Shown here piece by piece: positions 8,383 through 20,501 of a stretch of 60,533 nucleotides of DNA (positions within the stretch are counted from its first letter, which is position 1; every line of letters starts with the position of its first letter). This DNA is from Oscillospiraceae bacterium (lineage in GTDB: Bacteria > Bacillota > Clostridia > Oscillospirales > Ruminococcaceae), in assembly GCA_016281125.1 (NCBI GenBank), contig JAEEIA010000026.1, positions 1 through 60,533 of the forward strand, read 5' to 3'. The notes under the pieces were generated by a model that worked only from the letters and a program-made list of their open reading frames with translations, did no database searches and was not told the origin of the DNA. The position numbers and the translations under genes are program-made.

Positions 8383-8411
8383 TTGCATTTCATGCCGATT
8401 TGTGCTATAAT
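8383..8411 (+). promoter_or_regulatory. SigA-type promoter of the aromatic amino acid operon
   Basis: TTGCAT (8383-8388) and TATAAT (8406-8411) are separated by exactly 17 bp. Transcription would start near 8418, giving a leader of about 245 bases before the DAHP synthase ATG. That leader contains the Tyr/Phe-rich leader ORF and a terminator hairpin. Confidence 0.8.
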
Positions 8412-8446
8412 AGAGCCATATTCCGGAAGAAAGGGGCGCAATCGCC

Positions 8447-8560
8447 ATGCACAGCAGCAATTACGTGTATTTCGCAGCTGAATACCGATTTTACGGCTTT
8501 ACCGGCTATTATTACGGCAAGGTCAGATCCGGTGCGGCTGAACACGTTTGCGCAGCTTAA
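8447..8560 (+). CDS. Tyr/Phe-rich leader peptide of the aromatic amino acid operon
   Basis: A 37-codon ORF starting about 30 bases after the predicted transcription start. It has a good ribosome site (AGAAAGGGG, ten bases before the ATG). Of 37 residues, seven are Tyr (6, 8, 13, 16, 21, 22, 23) and three are Phe (9, 15, 18), and there is no Trp. The codons cluster in 8462-8515 and end in three consecutive Tyr codons. The operon downstream makes chorismate and then Phe and Tyr, so ribosome stalling at these codons would report charged tRNA-Tyr and tRNA-Phe, as in pheL-type attenuators of proteobacteria. A terminator follows 45 bases after the stop codon. It resembles no protein family, and its role is inferred from composition and position. 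Confidence 0.8.
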   Translation: MHSSNYVYFAAEYRFYGFTGYYYGKVRSGAAEHVCAA

Positions 8561-8604
8561 TGGTCATTGCGGTTTTCCCGCAGTATTCCGTTAGATGAAT
8601 GCAG

Positions 8605-8638
8605 AACGCTTGCGGCCCATCGGCTGTGAGCGTTTTTT
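8605..8638 (+). terminator. Attenuator terminator before the DAHP synthase gene
   Basis: A 13-bp stem, three pairs being G-T wobbles (8605-8617 with 8622-8634), has a 4-base loop and is followed by six T. It lies between the leader ORF and the first structural gene, where a terminator makes sense only as an attenuator. Two alternative pairings are visible by eye: CGCAGCT (8551-8557, at the leader stop codon) with GGCTGTG in the 3' arm (8622-8628), and CCGCA (8578-8582) with TGCGG in the 5' arm (8611-8615). The first would be masked by a ribosome that reaches the leader stop codon and free when it stalls at the Tyr codons. Folding energies were not computed. Confidence 0.75.
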
Positions 8639-8661
8639 GTTTCCAGAAAGGATGTATTCCC

Positions 8662-9669
8662 ATGATCGTTGTACTGAAACAGAACCCCAACCAGATGCAG
8701 CTGGAAAGCCTCATCGCATGGCTGGAGGAAAAACACATCGAGGTCAACAAGAGCGTCGGCACCTCGCACACCATTCTCGGCCTTGTCGGCGACACCGCGG
8801 CCATCGACCCCGACCTCATCTCCGCGCTCGAGATCGTCGAGGACGTCAAGCGCGTGCAGGAGCCGTACAAGCAGGCGAACCGGAAGTTCCATCCGGAACC
8901 GACCGTCATCAAGGTGCGCGATACGCAGATCGGCGGCGGCACGCTGACACTCATGGCAGGCCCCTGCTCCGTCGAAAGCGAAGAACAGATCGTCAACATC
9001 GCAAAGCAGGTCAAAGCCAGCGGCGCGACGGTGCTCCGCGGCGGCGCATTCAAGCCGCGCACCTCGCCGTACTCGTTCCAGGGCATGGGACTTGAAGGGC
9101 TGGAACTGCTGAAAATCGCCCGCGAGGAAACCGGCCTGCCGATCGTCACCGAAATCATGGACGCAGAGCATCTGTCCGCATTCAAGGATGTCGATATTAT
9201 TCAGGTCGGCGCGCGGAATATGCAGAACTTCTCGCTGCTGAAAGAGCTCGGCCATCAGGAAAAGCCGGTGCTCTTGAAGCGCGGCATGAGCGCAACCTAT
9301 GAGGAATGGCTGATGAGCGCGGAATACATCATGTCCGGCGGCAATCACAACGTCATCCTCTGCGAGCGCGGCATCCGCACGTTTGAAACGTATACACGCA
9401 ATATTCTCGATATCGGGGCCGTGACCGTGCTGCGGCATCTGACGCATCTGCCGATCATCGTGGATCCGTCCCACGCCTGCGGCAAGGCCTGGATGGTGCC
9501 GAAGATCGCACCGGCAGCCGTCGCGGCGGGTGCAGACGGCCTGATCATTGAGGTACACAACGATCCGGAGCACGCAGTCTGCGACGGCCCGCAGTCAATC
9601 AAGCCGGAAGCGTTTGATTCGCTGGCGAAAAAGCTGCACGCGCTCCACGGCTTTTTGCAGGAGCAGTGA
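8662..9669 (+). CDS. aroF: 3-deoxy-7-phosphoheptulonate (DAHP) synthase, type I-beta
   Basis: Condenses phosphoenolpyruvate and erythrose-4-phosphate, the first step of the shikimate pathway. The 335-residue protein has an N-terminal ferredoxin-like domain (about 1-70), which in relatives such as the Thermotoga enzyme binds Tyr for feedback inhibition, then a TIM barrel with LMAGPCSVES, LRGGAFKPRTSPYSFQG, LLKRGM and IVDPSHA. The start is the ATG at 8662 after AGAAAGGA; an in-frame ATG further upstream would run through the attenuator. It is the first gene of the aro operon, and the next gene's GTG overlaps its stop codon by four bases (GTGA). Confidence 0.96.
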   Translation: MIVVLKQNPNQMQLESLIAWLEEKHIEVNKSVGTSHTILGLVGDTAAIDPDLISALEIVEDVKRVQEPYKQANRKFHPEPTVIKVRDTQIGGGTLTLMAGPCSVESEEQIVNIAKQVKASGATVLRGGAFKPRTSPYSFQGMGLEGLELLKIAREETGLPIVTEIMDAEHLSAFKDVDIIQVGARNMQNFSLLKELGHQEKPVLLKRGMSATYEEWLMSAEYIMSGGNHNVILCERGIRTFETYTRNILDIGAVTVLRHLTHLPIIVDPSHACGKAWMVPKIAPAAVAAGADGLIIEVHNDPEHAVCDGPQSIKPEAFDSLAKKLHALHGFLQEQ

Positions 9670-10418
9670 GCCTGCACATCGCGCCGCCGGAGCGGTATCC
9701 GGCGCTGCGGATGCTGATTGACCCGGACACCTGCGGCGCCGTTTATGCATATTCCGTCGCCGAGGGGATCCAGTCCGGCATCCTGTATACGAATGAAAAT
9801 GAAACGGTATTGCTGGTGCATCATATCTGCGGATTCGCGCTGCTGTTCGGTGCATATACGGAAGAAACGCTCCGCGAGATCGGGGAGATGATCCGGCAGC
9901 CAGCGCCGTTTTCGAGAATGATCCTCTTTGCGCCGGATGATTATGCAGCTGCATATTTCAGAAAACAGGACGATTTTATCACGGAGCAGCGGCTGTTTTT
10001 CCGGTATCCGTCAGCGGAACAGCCGCCGGAGCCCTCAGCCGCAGAGCGGTTGACGCCTGCGCGCACGGAGCAGATCAGAGGCAGAATCACACCGTCGTTT
10101 TCATGGGACAATATGGACGATTTTGCGGAAAAAGGAACCGGATTCTGCATCATGCAGGACGGTATCCCGGCTGCATGGGCATTCTCCGCAGCGGTCAGCA
10201 GCAGGGAAACGGACATCGGCGTCGAAACGGATGAAAGCTGCCGCAGACGCGGATTTGCAACTGCGGCGGCGTCAGCCATGATCCGGGATACGCTGATCAA
10301 AGGAAAAACGCCGGTCTGGGCATGTCACGCAGAGAATACCGGTTCACGGAAACTCGCAGAGGCACTTGGATTTTCGGTATGCGGGCAGTGTACGACAGTC
10401 AGGAGGCACAGCCAATGA
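9666..10418 (+). CDS. GNAT-family N-acetyltransferase (first of three)
   Basis: A 250-residue protein whose C-terminal half (about 125-245) carries GNAT features: GVETDESCRRRGFATAAASAM is the acetyl-CoA-binding loop and helix, followed by CHAENTGSRKLAEALGF. The larger two-domain layout resembles the GNAT_acetyltran (ZmaR-like) group, which I infer rather than see. It starts with GTG in a four-base overlap with the DAHP synthase stop codon, so the genes are probably translationally coupled. The acyl acceptor is unknown; its place between DAHP synthase and tyrA suggests an aromatic or pathway-linked substrate, but nothing in the protein shows this. Confidence 0.85.
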   Translation: MSLHIAPPERYPALRMLIDPDTCGAVYAYSVAEGIQSGILYTNENETVLLVHHICGFALLFGAYTEETLREIGEMIRQPAPFSRMILFAPDDYAAAYFRKQDDFITEQRLFFRYPSAEQPPEPSAAERLTPARTEQIRGRITPSFSWDNMDDFAEKGTGFCIMQDGIPAAWAFSAAVSSRETDIGVETDESCRRRGFATAAASAMIRDTLIKGKTPVWACHAENTGSRKLAEALGFSVCGQCTTVRRHSQ

Positions 10419-10843
10419 CGAACGGTCTGACGATACGGGAAAACACCTTCACGGCAGCGGAATTTATCGCGCTGTGGGAATCGGTCTGGAGCGGCGCACC
10501 GGCCTTTGAGCAGGTCGAAAAGGCGCTTGCAAACAGCGTGTACCGCGTCGGCATTTACGACGGGGAGAAAATCGTCGGCATGGCGCGGATGATCGGCGAC
10601 CTCGGCCTGTGCTATTACATCAAGGATGTGATCGTGCGGCCGGAATATCAGGGCTGCGGTGCCGGCAGAATGTTGCTCGACCGCTTGCTGACATTCATCC
10701 GTAAAAACGGCGTGCCGGGTACGGATATCGCCGCGGAGCTCTGTGCAATGCCGGATAAAATGCCGTTTTACGCGAAATTCGGATTTGCTGCGAATGAAGC
10801 ACAGCGGATGCGCCTGATGCTCCGCGCAGGAGAAGAAGCATGA
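10415..10843 (+). CDS. GNAT-family N-acetyltransferase (second of three)
   Basis: A single-domain GNAT protein of 142 residues. The acetyl-CoA motif is VRPEYQGCGAGRMLLDRLL, and the later FYAKFGF is the usual beta-bulge segment. The ATG at 10415 overlaps the previous stop codon as ATGA; the frame is open further upstream, but that part lies inside the previous gene. The product would acetylate an amine, but its substrate is unknown. It forms a three-gene, four-base-overlap chain with its neighbours. Confidence 0.87.
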   Translation: MTNGLTIRENTFTAAEFIALWESVWSGAPAFEQVEKALANSVYRVGIYDGEKIVGMARMIGDLGLCYYIKDVIVRPEYQGCGAGRMLLDRLLTFIRKNGVPGTDIAAELCAMPDKMPFYAKFGFAANEAQRMRLMLRAGEEA

Positions 10844-11610
10844 CAAATCAGGAAATTCTTGCGGCTGCAATGCGGCAGTCGGCCATCGACCTCGGCTGTG
10901 AGCCGCATGATTTTACCCGCACAGAACCGGTAATTGTGACAGCCGGCATCCCGCAGAATGCGCGGAAATATCTGAAACAGCCGTATGCGGCATATTTCGT
11001 CAGCTATGGCAGCAATATCGTCGCATCTGTTTCGCCGGAGCTGTACGGCACCGTACAGGATTATCTTGCGAAATTTCCGCTTGTACACACGTTCGAGCCG
11101 CCGCATATACATGTGCTGCACGCAACGCTTGCACCGCTTGGCTACGGCATCTGCACAACATCGGAATACTGGCTGCCGGATGTAAACGCTGTCCGGCAAT
11201 TGGAATGCGAATACGATCTGCGCGTCCTCACGCAAAAGGATTTCGCCGGTTTATACCGCCCGGAGTGGTCAAACGCGCTGTGTGAAAAGCGCGCAGAACT
11301 GGATGTTCTCGGCGTCGGCGCATACGACGGAAACAAACTCGTCGGATTGGCGGGATGTTCCGCAGACTGTGAAAGCATGTGGCAGATCGGCGTAGACGTG
11401 CTGCCGGATTACAGAAGAAAAGGCATCGCGTCAGCAGTCACGAGCCGTCTGACGGCGGAAATATTGAAGCGCGGCAAGGTACCGTTTTACTGCTGCGCAT
11501 GGTGCAATCTTGCTTCGGCGCGCAATGCAGTCAAAAGCGGATTCCGGCCCGCGTGGACAGAAATGGATGTCCGCAGCATGGAGAAAATTGCAGCAATGAA
11601 CGCTGTGTAA
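10840..11610 (+). CDS. GNAT-family N-acetyltransferase (third of three)
   Basis: A 256-residue protein with an N-terminal domain of unknown type (about 1-130) and a C-terminal GNAT domain: IGVDVLPDYRRKGIASAVTS binds acetyl-CoA and is followed by CAWCNLASARNAVKSGF. The N-terminal half contains many aromatic residues. Its ATG overlaps the preceding stop codon as ATGA. The gap to tyrA is only 39 bases, so all three acetyltransferase genes are part of the aro operon. The substrate is unknown. Confidence 0.85.
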   Translation: MTNQEILAAAMRQSAIDLGCEPHDFTRTEPVIVTAGIPQNARKYLKQPYAAYFVSYGSNIVASVSPELYGTVQDYLAKFPLVHTFEPPHIHVLHATLAPLGYGICTTSEYWLPDVNAVRQLECEYDLRVLTQKDFAGLYRPEWSNALCEKRAELDVLGVGAYDGNKLVGLAGCSADCESMWQIGVDVLPDYRRKGIASAVTSRLTAEILKRGKVPFYCCAWCNLASARNAVKSGFRPAWTEMDVRSMEKIAAMNAV

Positions 11611-11649: not shown

Positions 11650-12489
11650 ATGAATATTGCGATTATCGGTCTTGGACTGATCGGCGGATCATATGCAAAA
11701 GCGACGAAATCACGTACTTTGCATACAGTCTATGGCTACGATCTCGACCAGGAGGTGATGATGTTCGCCCGCATGACCGGCGCGATGGACAAAGCGCTGA
11801 CGGACGAGCTTCTTGAAACCTGCGACCTTGTGCTTGTCGCGCTGCGGCCGGGCGCCGCGCTCAAATGGACGGCCGATCATGCCGCAATGCTCGGCCAGGC
11901 AAAATGCACGCTTGTCGATATTTGCGGCGTGAAAAGGGCCGTCGTCGGAGAGATGGCTGAAATCGCCCAGAAAAACGGATTCAAATACATCGGCGGTCAC
12001 CCGATGGCCGGTAAGGAGCAGGGTGGCTTCGTCAACGCCACCGACGCACTGTTCGACGGCGCTTCCATGATCCTGACGCCGGATGCAAATACAGATTTGC
12101 CGACGCTGGAAATGCTCAAAAATTACTTTACCGACATCGGTTTTGCACACCTGACCTTCTCCGATCCCGACGAACACGACCGCATCATCGCGTACACCTC
12201 TCAGCTCGCGCACATTGTTTCCGGCGCCTATGTCAAATCTCCGACGGCACAAAAACGCCGCGGTTTTTCGGCGGGCAGCTTCCGCGACCTGACCCGTGTC
12301 GCGCGTCTGGACGAGAATATGTGGACGGAGCTGATGCTGGATAACAGGGAGTATCTTGCGGATGAACTCCGGATTCTGATTGAGAATCTCAAGCCCTATC
12401 TGGAAGCACTGGAGGCCAACGACGCAGATAAGCTCAGAGAATGTCTGCGTGAAGGCCGGATCGCAAAGGCGTCTGCGGGCGGTAACTAA
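11650..12489 (+). CDS. tyrA: Prephenate dehydrogenase
   Basis: Oxidatively decarboxylates prephenate to 4-hydroxyphenylpyruvate, the Tyr branch. The 279-residue protein begins with a Rossmann motif, IGLGLIGGS; GGHPMAGKEQGG is the conserved substrate-binding His-Pro motif, and SQLAHIVSGA and GSFRDLTRVA are typical of the C-terminal helical domain. There is no ACT domain or fused chorismate mutase; the mutase is instead fused to prephenate dehydratase downstream. The ribosome site is ATCGGAGG. The next gene, aroB, follows 88 bases later. Confidence 0.95.
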   Translation: MNIAIIGLGLIGGSYAKATKSRTLHTVYGYDLDQEVMMFARMTGAMDKALTDELLETCDLVLVALRPGAALKWTADHAAMLGQAKCTLVDICGVKRAVVGEMAEIAQKNGFKYIGGHPMAGKEQGGFVNATDALFDGASMILTPDANTDLPTLEMLKNYFTDIGFAHLTFSDPDEHDRIIAYTSQLAHIVSGAYVKSPTAQKRRGFSAGSFRDLTRVARLDENMWTELMLDNREYLADELRILIENLKPYLEALEANDADKLRECLREGRIAKASAGGN

Positions 12490-12577: not shown

Positions 12578-13648
12578 ATGAAAAAGCAAATTCTGACCAC
12601 TCCGAACGGCGAAAGCTATCCGATACTGACCGGCACCGGTCTGCTTGATACCTGCGGCGCCGAGATTCAGTCTGTCGTAAAGCCGTGCCGTGTTATGCTC
12701 GTGTCTGATACAAACGTGGCGCCGCTTTATCTTGAGCGTGCTAGGAAATCTCTCGCAGATGCTGGATTCTCAGTGAATACGCATGTTGTTTCCGCAGGCG
12801 AGGAGAGCAAATCCGTCACTGTATTCGGCGCGCTGCTGGAATCCTTTGCAGAAGCCAAAATGACCCGCACAGATCTGGCGATTGCGCTTGGCGGCGGCGT
12901 CATCGGCGATTTGACCGGCTTCGCTGCCGGCTGTTATCTCCGCGGCATCCGGTTTATTCAGATGCCGACCACGCTGCTTTCCGCAGTAGATGCGTCGGTT
13001 GGCGGCAAAACCGCGGTCAATCTGACACACGGAAAAAATCTGGCGGGACTGTTTCATCAGCCGTCTGCCGTTTATTGCGATGTGGATACGCTTTCCACAC
13101 TGACGCCGCACGAAATGGCTGACGGCGCTGCTGAGGCAATCAAAACCGGCATTCTCGGTGATCCGGAGCTGTTCAAAATTTATGAAAACGGCAATCCGCT
13201 CGCGGATCTGGAAGAAATCATTTCGCGCGCTGTTTCTTATAAATCAAGGATCGTAACCGAGGATCCTGAGGAACACGGCGTCCGCAAGCTGCTGAATCTG
13301 GGACACACACCGGCTCACGCAATCGAACGCCTGAGCGACTTCAAAATCTCACACGGCCATGCAGTTGCAATCGGAATGGCGATGATGACACGTGCCGCCG
13401 TCAAGCGCGGAATTCTTGATAAGAACGAAGGTATGCGCATTCTGAATACAATCACAAGAAATAATCTGCCTGTATACTGTCCGTTTGGTGCTGCGGAAAT
13501 GGCAAAAATTGCGTCGATTGACAAAAAGGCTGCGGCATCTGAGATTACAGTGATTCTTCCTGAGCGGATCGGTCAGTGCAGAATGGAAAAGCTTCCGATT
13601 TCGTCGATTGAGGCGCTTTTTGCTGACGGACTGGAGGGGCAGGAATGA
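12578..13648 (+). CDS. aroB: 3-dehydroquinate synthase
   Basis: Converts DAHP to 3-dehydroquinate, the second shikimate-pathway step, using NAD+ and a divalent metal. The 356-residue protein shows the NAD-binding GGGVIGDLTGFAA, the substrate loop MPTTLLSAVDASVGGKTAVN, and metal-binding His residues in LNLGHTPAHAIE and SHGHAVAIGM. It starts after GAAAGGATAACCT. Its last codons overlap the aroA start as ATGA. Confidence 0.97.
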   Translation: MKKQILTTPNGESYPILTGTGLLDTCGAEIQSVVKPCRVMLVSDTNVAPLYLERARKSLADAGFSVNTHVVSAGEESKSVTVFGALLESFAEAKMTRTDLAIALGGGVIGDLTGFAAGCYLRGIRFIQMPTTLLSAVDASVGGKTAVNLTHGKNLAGLFHQPSAVYCDVDTLSTLTPHEMADGAAEAIKTGILGDPELFKIYENGNPLADLEEIISRAVSYKSRIVTEDPEEHGVRKLLNLGHTPAHAIERLSDFKISHGHAVAIGMAMMTRAAVKRGILDKNEGMRILNTITRNNLPVYCPFGAAEMAKIASIDKKAAASEITVILPERIGQCRMEKLPISSIEALFADGLEGQE

Positions 13649-14931
13649 ATGTCATCTGTTATCCGTCCGTGCTGTCCGGTTCGGTATCCGCTATTCCGTC
13701 CAAATCGGACGTGCATCGGAAGCTGATCTGCACGGCACTGTCCGGACAGCGGTGCATTCTCGATATGCACGGTACATTTTGTGATGATATTGCCGCCACA
13801 ATCCGCTGCCTGGAGGCGCTGGGCGCGTCCTTTGAAGCGCAACCGGCTGGACTTTCCGTGAACCCGATCATGCGGCAGCCAAGCACGAACCTCGACTGCG
13901 GCGAAAGCGGCTCCACGCTGCGGTTTCTTCTACCCGTCGCAATGACTGTCTGCAACGACGTTTCCGTGACCGGCTCCGGGCGCCTTCCGGAGCGTCCCAT
14001 CGGAACGCTTGTGCATGCAATGTCCGCCCACGGCGTACATTTTTCTCAGGATCATCTGCCGCTGCGCGCGACCGGTATACTGACAGGCGGCGTCTATGAA
14101 ATCGAAGGCAACATCAGCTCCCAGTTTCTCAGCGGCCTGCTGATGGCGCTTTCTTTTCTCGACACAGACAGCGAAATTCGTCTGACTACCCCGCTGCAAT
14201 CCTCCAAATATGTTGATATGACGCTGGATACGCTTCGGTTATTCGATGCGCAGATTGAAACCGAAACGGAAAACGGCCTGCTTCGGTATCATATGAAAAG
14301 CAAGAAGATGCACGATATTCCAAATTCGCTCCCGGTCGATGCGGATTGGTCGAACGCCGCGTTCTGGCTGACGGCCGGTGCTATTCAACCATCCGGTACC
14401 ATCCGGGTGACCGGGCTCAATCCGGATTCCGTGCAGGGGGACAAGGAAATCGCAGAGATTCTCAGACGTACCGGTGCGAATCTTGTGATGACAGACAAAT
14501 CCGGCAGATTAGAAACGAATGTTTCATGTGGAACACTTGACGAATTCGACGTATCTATGGAAGAAATCCCCGATCTTCTGCCGATTCTGGCGGTTCGTGC
14601 AGCGGTCGGAAACGGCATCTGCCGCTTTACAAATGCCGAGCGGCTCCGACTGAAGGAATCCGACAGGCTGACTGCGACCGCAGAACTGCTCCGCGCACTC
14701 GGCGGCAAAGTCGATGAAACGGCAGACGGACTGACCGTGTACGGCGGACAGCTGACCGGCGGTACGGTTGACGGACAAAACGATCACCGGCTTGTCATGG
14801 CGGCGGCGATTGCTGCTTTGCGCTGCGGGAACCCGGTCACGATTCTCGGCGCAGAAGCCGTCAACAAATCATATCCCGGCTTTTTTGATGACTACAAGGC
14901 GCTCGGCGGTCAGATTCAGACCGTCGGCTGA
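13645..14931 (+). CDS. aroA: 3-phosphoshikimate 1-carboxyvinyltransferase (EPSP synthase)
   Basis: Transfers the enolpyruvyl group of phosphoenolpyruvate to shikimate-3-phosphate. The 428-residue protein has the expected motifs: IPSKSDVHRKLICTALSG near the N-terminus, LDCGESGSTLRFLLP around 90, GNISSQFLSGLLMAL, and RLKESDRLTATAELLRALG with the DHRLVMAAAIAAL segment at the C-terminus. The start overlaps the aroB stop codon, so the two are probably coupled. Sensitivity class was not judged. Confidence 0.97.
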   Translation: MNVICYPSVLSGSVSAIPSKSDVHRKLICTALSGQRCILDMHGTFCDDIAATIRCLEALGASFEAQPAGLSVNPIMRQPSTNLDCGESGSTLRFLLPVAMTVCNDVSVTGSGRLPERPIGTLVHAMSAHGVHFSQDHLPLRATGILTGGVYEIEGNISSQFLSGLLMALSFLDTDSEIRLTTPLQSSKYVDMTLDTLRLFDAQIETETENGLLRYHMKSKKMHDIPNSLPVDADWSNAAFWLTAGAIQPSGTIRVTGLNPDSVQGDKEIAEILRRTGANLVMTDKSGRLETNVSCGTLDEFDVSMEEIPDLLPILAVRAAVGNGICRFTNAERLRLKESDRLTATAELLRALGGKVDETADGLTVYGGQLTGGTVDGQNDHRLVMAAAIAALRCGNPVTILGAEAVNKSYPGFFDDYKALGGQIQTVG

Positions 14932-14971
14932 GTGCATAAAACTATAACCAAATTGCGAAAGGAGAACGCTT

Positions 14972-16078
14972 ATGGCATCCAGCTTTGGAGAACGCCTGCG
15001 TGTTTCGATCTACGGCGAATCCCACGGAAACGGCATCGGTGCGGTCATCGAGGGGCTGCCTGCGGGAGAGGCGGTCGATCCGGCACAGCTGATGCGCTTT
15101 ATGGAGCGGCGGCAGGGCGGTCGGAACGCGCTGTCTACGGCCCGTAAGGAGCCTGATGTTCCGGAGTTTGTGAGCGGCATTTTCAATCACCGGACAACCG
15201 GTTTTCCGGTTTGCATCCGCATTGCAAACACGAATACCCGCTCCGGAGATTACAGCAATCTTGCTCTGAAACCCAGGCCGTCCCATGCGGATTATCCCGC
15301 CTATGTCAAATGGCACGGCGCTGCCGATATGCGCGGCGGCGGCCATTTTTCCGGTCGTCTGACAGCGCCGCTCTGTGCCGCGGGCGGCATGGCGCTGCAA
15401 ATCCTTGCACGGCACAATATCTTCGTAGGTGCGCATCTTTCGTCAATCGGTACAATTCACGATGATCCGTTTCCGATGCTGCCGGACAGCGCGCTGTTTT
15501 CCGAAATTGCCGCGAAAGCATTTCCGGTTATTTCCGATGAAGCCGGCGTCCGCATGCAGGAGGAGATTCTTGCGGCGCGTGAAGCGCTGGATTCCGTCGG
15601 CGGCACGATTGAATGCATGGTGACCGGCCTCCCGGCGGGGCTCGGTGACCCGATGTTTGACGGAATGGAAAACCGGCTGGCACGCGTGCTGTTCGGGATT
15701 CCCGCGGTCAAGGGTGTCGAATTCGGTGACGGCTTTGCGCTTTCTGAGATGCGCGGCTCGCAGGCGAATGACCCTTACCGCACCGACGAAAAGGGCAATA
15801 TCGTTACAGAAACAAACCGCAACGGCGGTATTCTGGGCGGCATCACAACCGGGATGCCCCTGCGGTTCCGCGTTGGAATCAAGCCGACGCCCTCGATTGC
15901 ACAGCCGCAGAAAACAGTATCCCTGCCGGAGGGCGAAGAAACTGTTCTGGAAATCAAGGGGCGTCATGATCCCTGCATTGCACAGCGCGCCGTGCCGGTC
16001 ATTGAGGCCGCCGCAGCGCTGACGGTTCTGGACGTGCTGCTTTGTGACGGCAGGTTCCCGGAGGGAGGCACATCATGA
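14972..16078 (+). CDS. aroC: Chorismate synthase
   Basis: Makes chorismate from EPSP with reduced FMN, the last common step. The 368-residue protein begins with FGERLRVSIYGESHGNGIG, the family's first signature; RPSHADYPAYVKW and ADMRGGGHFSGRLTAPLCAAG follow, and GGILGGITTGMPLRFRVGIKP with RHDPCIAQRAVPVIEAA lies near the end. GAAAGGAGAA precedes the ATG, 40 bases after aroA. Its stop codon overlaps the next gene's start as ATGA. Confidence 0.97.
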   Translation: MASSFGERLRVSIYGESHGNGIGAVIEGLPAGEAVDPAQLMRFMERRQGGRNALSTARKEPDVPEFVSGIFNHRTTGFPVCIRIANTNTRSGDYSNLALKPRPSHADYPAYVKWHGAADMRGGGHFSGRLTAPLCAAGGMALQILARHNIFVGAHLSSIGTIHDDPFPMLPDSALFSEIAAKAFPVISDEAGVRMQEEILAAREALDSVGGTIECMVTGLPAGLGDPMFDGMENRLARVLFGIPAVKGVEFGDGFALSEMRGSQANDPYRTDEKGNIVTETNRNGGILGGITTGMPLRFRVGIKPTPSIAQPQKTVSLPEGEETVLEIKGRHDPCIAQRAVPVIEAAAALTVLDVLLCDGRFPEGGTS

Positions 16079-16416: not shown

Positions 16417-17562
16417 ATGGAATTATCGGAGATCCGTCCGCAGCTGGACAATATTGACGCGCAGCTGCTCGACCTCTTTCTTGAGCGCATGTCTTTGATC
16501 GACAAGATCGCAGACATCAAAAAGCGCGATCCCTCCAAGCCGCTGTACGACCCGGCGCGTGAGCGCGAGATCCTGATGCGGATCCGGGAGCGTGCAGGCA
16601 CGGAGTACGGCGATGCGGCGCACCAGCTGTTCCGCATGGTGCTGGAGCTTTCCCGTGCGCGCCAGGCTGCACAGCTGATTCCCGCAACGAGTGTCGCTGC
16701 GCGCGTCGCTGCAATGTGTGCGCATGAACAGTCTGTATTCCCGCAGTCCGGACGCGTTGCGGTTTCCGGCGTCGAAGGCAGCCACGCGGGCGCTGCCGCA
16801 GACAGACTGTTCCCCAAGGGCAATATCATCTTCATGGACGGCTTTGCAGCGGTCGTACAGGCAGTGCAGGCCGGGCTGTGTCAGTTCGGTATTCTGCCGG
16901 TTGAGAACAGCGTGCAGGGCTCCGTCCGGCAGGTCTACGATCTGCTCCGCGAGCCGGATATCTGCATTGTCCGGAGCGTCCGGCAGCTGATCCGGCATGT
17001 GCTGCTGACGCAGAAGGACGCGCAGCTCTCCGATATCAAAACTGTGTATACGCACGAGCAGGCCGCCGGACAGTGCAGCCGCTTTTTGCAGTGGCTCGGC
17101 GCGGATGTCATCCCCTGCGTCAGTACCGCCCATGCGGCACAGCGTGCGGCGGAATCGAAGGACAAATCCGTTGCAGCGATTGCGGGTGAGGCATGTGCAA
17201 AGCTCTACGGCCTTTCTGTGCTGACGGACGATATCCAGAACGAGAGCAACAATGATACGCGCTTTTTATGTATCACCAAGGGCGCCTCGTGCTATGCCGG
17301 AGCTGACCGCATGAGCATTCTCGTCAACTGCGCGAATTCCCCGGGTGCGCTCTATCAGATGATCGCAAAGATCTCCGCGCTCGGCATCAACATGTGCAAG
17401 CTGGAAAGTATGCCAATCCCCGGCACGAATTTCTCTTACCGCTTCTATATGGATCTGGAATGCAATCTGCATCAGGAGGGCGTGCTCGGCCTGCTCTGTG
17501 AGCTGGAGCGCTCCTGTGATTCGTTCACACTGCTCGGCAATTATACGGAGATGATCGGATAA
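16417..17562 (+). CDS. pheA: Bifunctional chorismate mutase / prephenate dehydratase (P-protein)
   Basis: Converts chorismate to prephenate and then to phenylpyruvate. The 381-residue protein has an AroQ-type mutase domain (about 1-90, with LDLFLERMSLIDKIADIK and LYDPAREREIL), a prephenate dehydratase domain (about 110-285, with VEGSHAGAAADRLFP, LPVENSVQGSV and the NDTRFLCI signature), and an ACT domain (about 295-381, with LCKLESMPIPGTNFSYRFYMDLE) that binds Phe for feedback inhibition. Its ribosome site is AAAGGAG. With tyrA it makes the operon a complete Phe/Tyr branch up to the transaminase step. Confidence 0.96.
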   Translation: MELSEIRPQLDNIDAQLLDLFLERMSLIDKIADIKKRDPSKPLYDPAREREILMRIRERAGTEYGDAAHQLFRMVLELSRARQAAQLIPATSVAARVAAMCAHEQSVFPQSGRVAVSGVEGSHAGAAADRLFPKGNIIFMDGFAAVVQAVQAGLCQFGILPVENSVQGSVRQVYDLLREPDICIVRSVRQLIRHVLLTQKDAQLSDIKTVYTHEQAAGQCSRFLQWLGADVIPCVSTAHAAQRAAESKDKSVAAIAGEACAKLYGLSVLTDDIQNESNNDTRFLCITKGASCYAGADRMSILVNCANSPGALYQMIAKISALGINMCKLESMPIPGTNFSYRFYMDLECNLHQEGVLGLLCELERSCDSFTLLGNYTEMIG

Positions 17563-19211: not shown

Positions 19212-20501
19212 ATGACAGAGTTCAAAACACCCTACGGCCTGATCGGGCGGAAGCTCGGTCACAGCATTTCGCCGGAGATTCACGCGGCGCTCGGCAACCC
19301 GCAGTATTCACTCTATGAGCTGGAACCGGACGAGTTGCCGGTTTTCCTCGCAGATACGCGGTTACAGGCGCTGAACGTCACAATCCCGTATAAAATCGAC
19401 GTTATCCCGCTCTGCAAAACGCTCGATCCGCTTGCAGAGGCCATCGGCAGCGTGAACACACTGGTTCGGCAGGATGACGGCTCATGGAAGGGCTATAACA
19501 CGGATGCCTACGGTCTGCGCTGCATGATGCGCGCGGGCGGGCTGTCCTTCGCAGATGCGAATGTGCTGGTGCTCGGCAACGGCGGCGTGTCGCAGACGAT
19601 TCAGGCTGTGGCCAGGCTGGACGGCTGCGCAAAGCTGACCGTGCTTGATTTGAGCGGCACGGAGTACACCTACGACGATCTTCCGAAATTCTACGCAGAT
19701 ACGACGCTGATCGTCAATGCGACGCCCGTCGGCATGTACCCGAAGGCGGGGGTATCGCTGGTTGACCTGACGCATTTCCCGCGGCTCGGCGGCGTCGCGG
19801 ACGTAATCTATAACCCCGCAAGAACCGCGCTGCTCTTGCAGGCAAAATCACTCGGCATCCCGTATGCAGGCGGCCTGACGATGCTCGTCGCACAGGCAAA
19901 GCAGGCTGCGGAGCACTTCTTCGGCAAAGCGATTGACGATGTCAGAATCGCGGAAATCGGTGCGGATATGCAGCGTGACGCGGAAAATATCGTGCTGATC
20001 GGCATGCCCGGCAGCGGCAAATCCTGCATCGGTGACGCGCTCGGCGCCCTGACCGGCCGGCCGGTCATTGATCTGGATGCGGAGATCGTGAAGAAGGCGG
20101 GCAAGCCGATCCCGGAGATTTTTGCAGCAGGCGGTGAGGACACCTTCCGCAAAATCGAGTCCGAGGTCGTGCGGGAGCAGAGTGCGAACCGCGGCGTCAT
20201 TCTGGTGACGGGCGGCGGCGTGGTCACCCGTGCGGAAAATGAAGCGCCGCTGCGGAGCAACGGCCGGATCTGTCAGATCTGCCGTCCGGTTTCGGAGCTG
20301 AGCCGCGAGGGACGGCCGCTGTCCATCGGCGCCGACCTTGCGCAGATGGAAGCTGTCAGAATGCCGCTTTATCAGAAATTCGCGGATACCGCGATTGAAA
20401 ACGACCGCACGCCGGAGGCAGCTGCGGAACAGATCTGGAGGGATTTTTGTGCATATACTCGTGCTGAATGGACCGAATTTGAACATGCTGGGAATCCGTG
20501 A
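19212..20501 (+). CDS. aroE-aroK: Fused shikimate dehydrogenase / shikimate kinase
   Basis: A 429-residue fusion of two consecutive-step enzymes. Residues 1 to about 255 are shikimate dehydrogenase: IGRKLGHSISPEIH, catalytic Lys61 in NVTIPYK, Asp97 in YNTDAYG, and a GNGGVSQTI dinucleotide loop. Residues about 258-420 are shikimate kinase: Walker A GMPGSGKS (264-271), DLDAEIVKKAGKPI for shikimate binding, FRKIESEVV, and GGGVVTR. The ribosome site is GGAGG. The gene ends with an extra tail whose codons overlap the start of aroQ by 53 bases. Confidence 0.95.
   Translation: MTEFKTPYGLIGRKLGHSISPEIHAALGNPQYSLYELEPDELPVFLADTRLQALNVTIPYKIDVIPLCKTLDPLAEAIGSVNTLVRQDDGSWKGYNTDAYGLRCMMRAGGLSFADANVLVLGNGGVSQTIQAVARLDGCAKLTVLDLSGTEYTYDDLPKFYADTTLIVNATPVGMYPKAGVSLVDLTHFPRLGGVADVIYNPARTALLLQAKSLGIPYAGGLTMLVAQAKQAAEHFFGKAIDDVRIAEIGADMQRDAENIVLIGMPGSGKSCIGDALGALTGRPVIDLDAEIVKKAGKPIPEIFAAGGEDTFRKIESEVVREQSANRGVILVTGGGVVTRAENEAPLRSNGRICQICRPVSELSREGRPLSIGADLAQMEAVRMPLYQKFADTAIENDRTPEAAAEQIWRDFCAYTRAEWTEFEHAGNP

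Follow-up and report, generated by a model that had tools for sequence, protein, structure and literature searches.

Transcription attenuators such as pheL-pheA and pheST of Escherichia coli (PMC11802643) are among the known systems to which the leader region described here can be compared. It most closely resembles the aroR-aroF attenuator of Corynebacterium glutamicum, where an aromatic leader peptide likewise precedes the DAHP synthase gene and where ribosome stalling raises transcription (Neshat et al. 2014, as cited in PMC11802643); the aroR-aroF attenuator also appears as a candidate in PMC4046766. However, aroR belongs to an actinobacterium, comprises a short Phe-Tyr-Phe motif and is reported in PMC11802643 to respond to Phe and not to Tyr, whereas the leaders described here, compared with it by description, contain 5-9 mixed Tyr/Phe codons in 15 as well as conserved nested hairpins. 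The E. coli systems share the leader peptide, the alternation of 1:2, 2:3 and 3:4 pairings and the read-through upon limitation, but they are found in Proteobacteria and concern Phe, while the element described here shows no Rfam leader match.

Among the Firmicutes, a Leu-rich attenuator peptide precedes ilvD in Staphylococcus aureus (PMC5794164), which as here concerns an amino-acid operon, but involves Leu and staphylococci. His leader peptides predicted for Bacillus, Peptostreptococcaceae and Erysipelotrichales (PMC2965389 and PMC9413887) are likewise leader-peptide attenuators of Firmicutes, but, compared by description, they belong to His genes and to a few scattered lineages. Considering these His and Leu leaders together with aroR-aroF, the kind of switch is already known. 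A literature search, which mostly comprised papers available without subscription, retrieved no report of an aromatic leader-peptide attenuator for the bacterial group of the window, in line with the original prediction, which knew of no description for this group. What appears to be new is the family, its spread, the codon mix for two amino acids and the form in which the leader is separated from its gene.

Leader region and aromatic operon of the window

The window, i.e. the complete stretch of 60,533 nt that was analysed, belongs to a 3.9-Mb draft genome (G000). Among the matches listed, the named relatives closest to this genome are MAGs from rumen and gut that carry the labels Oscillospiraceae, Ruminococcus or Clostridiales; Oscillibacter and others come next. 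The following features were assigned to the leader and the operon:

8383..8411, + strand: promoter with a weak -35 (TTGCAT, 8383-8388), a 17-nt spacer and an extended -10 TGTGCTATAAT (TATAAT, 8406-8411), read from the sequence
8427..8436, + strand: ribosome binding site of the leader ORF, AAGAAAGGGG; GAAAGGGG ends 10 nt 5' of the ATG
8447..8560, + strand: leader peptide ORF of 37 codons with 7 Tyr, 3 Phe and 0 Trp; counterparts in relatives
8557..8594, + strand: small hairpin between leader stop and terminator, from folds and alignment; enclosed by the antiterminator
8603..8638, + strand: intrinsic terminator (3:4) with a 15-pair stem 8603-8617/8622-8636, a 4-nt loop 8618-8621 and a U tract to 8638
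8662..9669, + strand: aroF, DAHP synthase (TIGR01361 / PRK08673)
11650..12489, + strand: tyrA, prephenate dehydrogenase
12578..16078, + strand: aroB, aroA, aroC
16417..17562, + strand: pheA, chorismate mutase - prephenate dehydratase
19212..20501, + strand: shikimate dehydrogenase N-terminal domain and shikimate kinase in a single ORF

The ORF at 8447-8560 encodes MHSSNYVYFAAEYRFYGFTGYYYGKVRSGAAEHVCAA, and both its length and its good ribosome site agree with the original prediction, as do the ten aromatic codons without Trp. Compared to the Tyr and Phe content of the operon itself (5.3%), 10 aromatic codons of 37 correspond to P = 1.6e-5. The Tyr triplet at 8507-8515 closes the aromatic cluster and not the ORF itself, which continues for 14 more codons. 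Searches of NCBIfam and Pfam with three leader peptides yielded no protein family. The products of the operon, Tyr and Phe, are the amino acids of the clustered leader codons. The operon genes also include a DUF3784 gene, and a tandem of three GNAT acetyltransferase genes lies within the aro operon at 9666-11610.

For the predicted SigA promoter, the extended -10 and the weak -35 can be read at 8383-8411; the site is absent from the output of the consensus promoter scan. A site resembling TGTGCTA lies no more than 90 nt from where the leader begins in 24 of the 72 loci, each covered over 330 nt upstream of aroF. The terminator was found where it had been predicted, between the leader ORF and the start of the DAHP synthase gene, and the folding z amounted to -4.4 for 8560-8640 and -4.3 for 8575-8640. 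The small hairpin at 8557-8594 corresponds mainly to gaps in the alignment of relatives outside the genus.

T-boxes (RF00230), which sense tRNA charging, occur before other amino-acid genes of the same genome. Seven matches, four of them above the cut-off, were obtained in G000, and they precede leuA-, ilvB-, valS-, trpB- and aspS-like genes among others (names by reading translations). The T-box at L208 (G000:C50) precedes a gene whose product, read by eye, looks like a fusion of a helix-turn-helix/cupin portion and an AMP-binding ligase. The contrast drawn earlier with Firmicutes as T-box users is a fair one, with T-boxes present in this very genome; His and Leu leader peptides are known or predicted elsewhere in the phylum. 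The presence of T-boxes could suggest that the aroF leader also contains a T-box or another RNA sensor, or acts on the translation of aroF, the ORF being incidental. This is extremely unlikely: at the gathering score, the Rfam search gave no match in the window (T-box and Phe, Trp, His and Leu leader families included) and nothing but two tRNAs in 40 relative loci, and the conserved 3' part is a terminator with a U tract and not a sequestered ribosome site of aroF. A ribosome-mediated transcription attenuator sensing charged tRNA-Tyr and tRNA-Phe is, by comparison, a very probable reading of the element, and the conservation and pairing data given below bear on it.

Conservation, spread and codon content of the leader

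In the near set, which comprised 81 loci (the window and the best 80 named DAHP synthase relatives among the matches listed), the script asked for an aromatic ORF plus a terminator upstream of the DAHP synthase gene. Both were found in 72 of the 81 upstream regions, while a near-identical rule fired in just 3 of 1440 Markov resamples of these 72. The Tyr and Phe codons and the terminator on which the original prediction was built are thus kept in relatives, and both kinds of codon are present in all 72 leaders (mean of 7.2 of 15). The nine remaining loci fall into three groups. L061 contains the leader, but no terminator according to the script, and the covariance model detects the element in its genome (G009); for L057 and L069, the upstream sequence comprises 122 and 200 bases only; L052, L053, L055, L058, L059 and L131 have a transporter gene of opposite orientation immediately upstream of the DAHP synthase gene. 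In L007, L009, L019 and L061, an in-frame TGA cuts the leader ORF just before segment 2, and the remaining element is intact.

The covariance model R1 was used to search genomes of the order, the class and the phylum. Within the genus of the window, 27 of 30 genomes showed a strong match (E 1e-7 or better); in two of the other three no DAHP synthase was found and in the third the gene lies at a contig end. A search with the leader peptide matched 18 of the 30 genomes, the own genome included, and one of its matches, L020 (G027:C8), is weak and looks spurious. Across the order, 111 of 396 genomes were matched at E 0.01, where many of the weak rows may be terminators only, and 59 of 396 at 1e-6 or better (hand count, genomes of training loci included). 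The latter are distributed over 14 families, one of which (f3) is represented solely by L203, with no DAHP synthase behind it. The gene downstream was assigned for 49 loci, resulting in DAHP synthase for 41, tyrA for 5 and none for 3; these three (L201, L202 and L203) all show an E at or better than 1e-6. Beyond the order, the element is sparse: at 1e-6, 7 of 393 genomes besides the own one were found in the sampled class, one of them from the same order, and 6 of 299 besides the own one in the sampled phylum. Ten of the 12 loci outside the order precede a DAHP synthase gene and have an aromatic leader, while L217 and L223 do not. Family f19, which was searched more fully, gave 10 of 63 genomes at 1e-5.

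A focused search of the 25 best-matching DAHP synthase loci in the family of the window, outside the genus, detected the element in 17 (E 0.03 or better), 7 of which reach 1e-6 or better. Of the same 25 loci, an ORF in which 15 codons include 7 or more Tyr/Phe occurs in 21, and the combination of ORF and terminator asked for by the script in 16. Since the focused search finds the element in this many loci, the counts from whole genomes are probably too low. Differently built aromatic leaders were also seen before DAHP synthase genes in the family of the window (L031-L033, L039, L040, L043, L045-L047 and others); many have FFCC or LCC near the end and possibly represent a second type of attenuator.

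The codons of the leaders differ in what appears to hold them constant. Behind the aromatic cluster, two short motifs are nearly frozen at the codon level, namely GKA in 57 leaders (GGT, AAG, GCT) and GLAE in 47 leaders (GGT, TTG, GCT, GAA). The DAHP synthase genes at these loci use GGT, GCT and TTG for just 12%, 6% and 5% of the codons of their amino acids; AAG is common there too and is therefore uninformative. These invariant and mostly locally rare codons point to a constraint on the RNA over one on the peptide. Within the aromatic cluster, Tyr and Phe interchange by position, and the Tyr codons are divided between TAC (146) and TAT (108). Phe is mostly encoded by TTT (231 of 262), which amounts to 30% in the DAHP synthase genes, so that some constraint at the RNA level also exists in the cluster. 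Altogether, the tail of the peptide seems to be conserved through RNA pairing and the aromatic cluster largely through what it encodes.

Peptide-mediated arrest is known from TnaC for Trp, and a peptide that itself stalls the ribosome on binding free Tyr or Phe would explain why the leader peptide is recognisably conserved across many genera. The conservation behind the cluster, however, lies at the level of codons and fits RNA pairing, Tyr and Phe are exchanged within the cluster, and the length of the cluster is variable. In addition, stalling at plentiful amino acid would mean induction by excess, which has the wrong sign for a biosynthetic operon. Arrest by the nascent peptide is accordingly considered highly improbable.

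A different kind of evidence comes from genomes with a second copy of the leader before tyrA, the product of which serves Tyr only. Counted over the part before the 3' arm of the hairpin, the tyrA leaders of four such genomes showed Y:F ratios of 6:1, 6:2, 7:1 and 9:0, compared to 4:4, 2:7, 3:7 and 6:4 for the aroF leaders of the same genomes. This shift of Y:F with the downstream gene is what sensing of tRNA predicts. Leader copies before tyrA were seen at L185, L187, L188, L190, L199 and L230, among which L199 (Y:F of 6:4) and likewise L230 are without an aroF partner found.

Alternative RNA pairings and the position of the ribosome

The pairing segments of the window are as follows:

8474..8487, + strand: segment 1, GCAGCTGAATACCG; partner is segment 2; outer helices 69 and 90% of A2 cells paired
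8495..8524, + strand: inner hairpin, GGCTTTACC / GGCAAGGTC; its loop (8504-8515) contains the Tyr-Tyr-Tyr codons
8529..8554, + strand: segment 2 (core 8531-8540), which pairs alternatively with segment 1 or segment 3
8600..8621, + strand: segment 3, i.e. the 5' arm and loop of the terminator; antiterminator partner of segment 2

Pairing was evaluated on alignment A2, which contains 62 sequences (from the 72, nine near-duplicates were filtered and L064 was omitted). In the main helix of the inner hairpin (AGCUUUACC/GGUAAGGCU, aromatic codons in the loop), 99% of the cells were paired, with two-sided changes at 2 of 7 pairs; its outermost pair (columns 32-80) showed 9 two-sided cells, a rough number given that some rows have the base in column 44. 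Across the 72 loci, this hairpin reached an average of 8.8 of 9 pairs, compared to 7.9 for swapped and 6.8 for shuffled partners. The whole 1:2 structure including the inner hairpin was paired in 89% of cells vs at most 53% for slid controls, with 30 two-sided cells vs 9.7 after shuffling, and just 69% of cells were paired in its outermost helix.

Segment 2 consists of GGUUUGGCUG and variants, from the codons reading G-L-A-E, and pairs with the 5' arm and loop of the terminator, CAGCCAAACC and variants. For 2:3, 93.6% of the A2 cells were paired, while slid controls did not exceed 46%; 17 two-sided changes were counted compared to 4.7 in shuffles, and none of 500 shuffles reached 17. A terminator loop needs no conservation for termination. 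Its conservation can be explained by the match to the leader, as segment 2 pairs with both arm and loop. In the stalled fold of the window, the 2:3 pairs are 8531-8534 and 8536-8540 with 8613-8621, 8545-8549 with 8604-8608, and 8552-8554 with 8600-8602. Altogether, the predicted inner, 2:3 and 3:4 helices covary.

The duplex of segment 2 and terminator arm was also calculated for 52 loci outside the set of the model (those that remain of 69 once 3 lacking a downstream gene, 7 used in training and 7 in which the script detected no terminator are removed). Cognate arms gave -16.5 kcal/mol, compared to -11.8 for swapped and -10.7 for shuffled arms; in 49 of the 52, the cognate arm was better than the mean of the swapped arms (p about 1e-9), and its median rank lay in the best 6%. 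Most of these loci were retrieved with a model into which the consensus of both arms is built, and some are close kin of training loci. For the 72 near loci, the same calculation resulted in -19.4 vs -17.7 kcal/mol for swapped arms, with 59 of 72 better; shared ancestry remains in the shuffle and swap controls. Five loci of f19 showed no support for 2:3, namely the tyrA copies L187, L188, L199 and L230 and the aroF copy L186, and among the six tyrA copies the pairing was present in L185 and L190 only. Apart from these five, antiterminator and terminator are mutually exclusive.

In one point the original prediction has to be revised. It assigned the switch to CGCAGCT (8551-8557) pairing with the 3' arm of the terminator, whereas the conserved antiterminator is formed by 8531-8554 with 8600-8621. 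Although the seven bases can pair with GGCTGTG, counting G-U pairs, and CGCAGC is seen by eye in six more leaders of the genus (L002, L003, L004, L008, L010 and L012), it is missing at the ORF end in 71 of 72 leaders, the window being the exception, and is not found in L054, L056 and the majority of the others. In the 60 of the 72 loci for which the sequence extends far enough beyond segment 2, the leader end paired with the 3' arm at -7.79 kcal/mol vs -7.77 for swapped arms, with 24 of 60 better (p = 0.75). Since the 5' arm is the one engaged in folds that lack the upstream part, and the covarying pairs are those with 5' arm and loop, the 3'-arm pairing is scarcely credible as the switch.

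The influence of the ribosome was calculated for transcripts that do not yet include the 3' arm, with the bases under the ribosome footprint kept from pairing, where 2:3 was counted as formed at a threshold of at least 6 expected pairs. With the first, middle and last aromatic codon in the A site, 2:3 was formed in 70, 64 and 45 of 72 loci; once the ribosome had reached the stop codon, the number was 11 of 72. A leader that is wholly free of ribosomes still favoured 2:3 before arm 4 in 36 of 72 loci, and accordingly an untranslated leader is not predicted to terminate tightly in every locus. The core of segment 2 ends a median of 14 nt before the stop codon (68 loci), which corresponds to the rear edge of a terminating ribosome, so that masking by the ribosome only may be incomplete; the re-forming of 1:2 behind the ribosome probably helps. 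For the window, 18 expected 2:3 pairs were obtained with the RNA behind the ribosome out of play, but 7.6, 0.6 and 0.1 at the first, middle and last codon if pairing across the ribosome was allowed. Before arm 4, stalls at the middle and last codon thus give 2:3 in the window only if the RNA behind cannot pair ahead. The folds agree on the relation of stall position and structure in most loci and vary with the footprint assumptions, the window included.

In full-length transcripts of the 72 loci, the mean terminator probability was 0.92 in the stalled, 0.98 in the stop and 0.96 in the free state. The stop state of this set was folded with all RNA up to the ribosome removed, which overstates masking, and the folds with blocked footprint are preferred. 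The window showed terminator probabilities of 0.82-0.92 at seven of eight stall edges, whereas at edge 8521 a terminator probability of 0.20 and 13.6 expected 2:3 pairs indicate that its two states are close. Since the terminator on average dominates the full-length folds in all states, the antiterminator must mostly act kinetically, during transcription.

These sequence data support a classical 1:2 / 2:3 / 3:4 ribosome-mediated attenuator, and the Tyr/Phe leader-peptide attenuation originally proposed for this shikimate operon is, as a class of mechanism, strongly supported by conservation and covariation. From them we infer the following course, from the stalling of the ribosome through to the change in expression. 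With both Tyr- and Phe-tRNA plentiful, the ribosome would pass the aromatic codons, segment 2 would be kept from pairing with segment 3, in part by the ribosome close to the stop codon and in part by the re-formed 1:2, and the terminator 3:4 would halt transcription before aroF. With either tRNA scarce, the ribosome would stall on an aromatic codon inside the 1:2 hairpin, which would free segment 2 to pair with the emerging 5' arm and loop of the terminator (2:3), and transcription would continue into aroF and onward into the genes of the Tyr/Phe pathway.

Leaders separated from aroF by a transporter gene

In 12 of the 28 genus members with DAHP synthase, a gene for an MhsT/LeuT-like Na+-dependent transporter is found upstream of aroF and read from the opposite strand, the two genes being arranged head to head. 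The transporter belongs to NCBIfam NF037979, and its nearest solved structure is 4us3 (E 3e-80), which we take to be MhsT.

Transporter loci: L052, L053, L055, L058, L059, L131 (about 1340-2870), L132-L135, L137-L141, L143, L150, L151

A strong leader element is retained in all 12 transporter genomes, in 10 of them on the same contig at the far side of the transporter, and in G014 and G025 on a different contig from aroF. Ten separated leaders were measured, including L002 and L019 from other contigs of G013 (L015 was dropped for want of an anchor), and their segments 2 and 3 prefer the own partner over the mean of the others. Compared to shuffled arms, the advantage was clear for L012, L007 and L008 (0, 1 and 6 of 300) and moderate for L009, L010, L014 and L019 (13-18 of 300), and it was not evident for L002, L003 and L004 (50-56 of 300).

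The persistence of the leader in these 12 genomes may suggest that the element acts mainly in trans, i.e. that other genes are controlled by the terminated leader RNA or by the peptide, a mode of action that has been reported for certain attenuator RNAs. Since the element lies directly before aroF or tyrA in most loci examined, and its codon content tracks the gene in cis, this is very unlikely to be the main role, although trans action could be an extra one.

The separated loci look like a noncontiguous operon, a concept described in PMC7154746. In L131, the only separated locus scanned, the sole promoter-like site on the plus strand precedes the leader, and only the promoter of the transporter is listed between transporter and aroF; the three promoter-like sites of this locus are no excess over the 1.8 expected in shuffles. 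A weak terminator-like site at 2901-2921 counts against a noncontiguous operon. We tentatively propose, while regarding it as somewhat doubtful, that the attenuator gates such an operon, in which read-through upon Tyr or Phe shortage would transcribe the importer gene in antisense over 1.4 kb en route to the aro operon. If true, one switch would couple aromatic synthesis and uptake. Independently of this, the transporter promoter is overlapped in all 12 loci listed by an element that has TTCGTCAAG as its core and, in most cases, inverted repeats on its flanks; in L131 this element is located at about 2930-2970, over the transporter -35 (TTGACG), and is possibly a repressor site.

In practical terms, the covariance model can be used for annotation, and the element accounts for short conserved ORFs that are possibly annotated as small proteins. 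Oscillibacter valericigenes (L075, L076, L106) represents a named and cultivated test case, and the codon shift between tyrA and aroF leaders a natural experiment on sensing by the ribosome. For the biology of these bacteria, the findings mean that the initial step of aromatic amino-acid synthesis is likely under leader-peptide attenuation across many families within one order of gut Clostridia and, sparsely, outside that order, in a phylum that is usually described via T-boxes.
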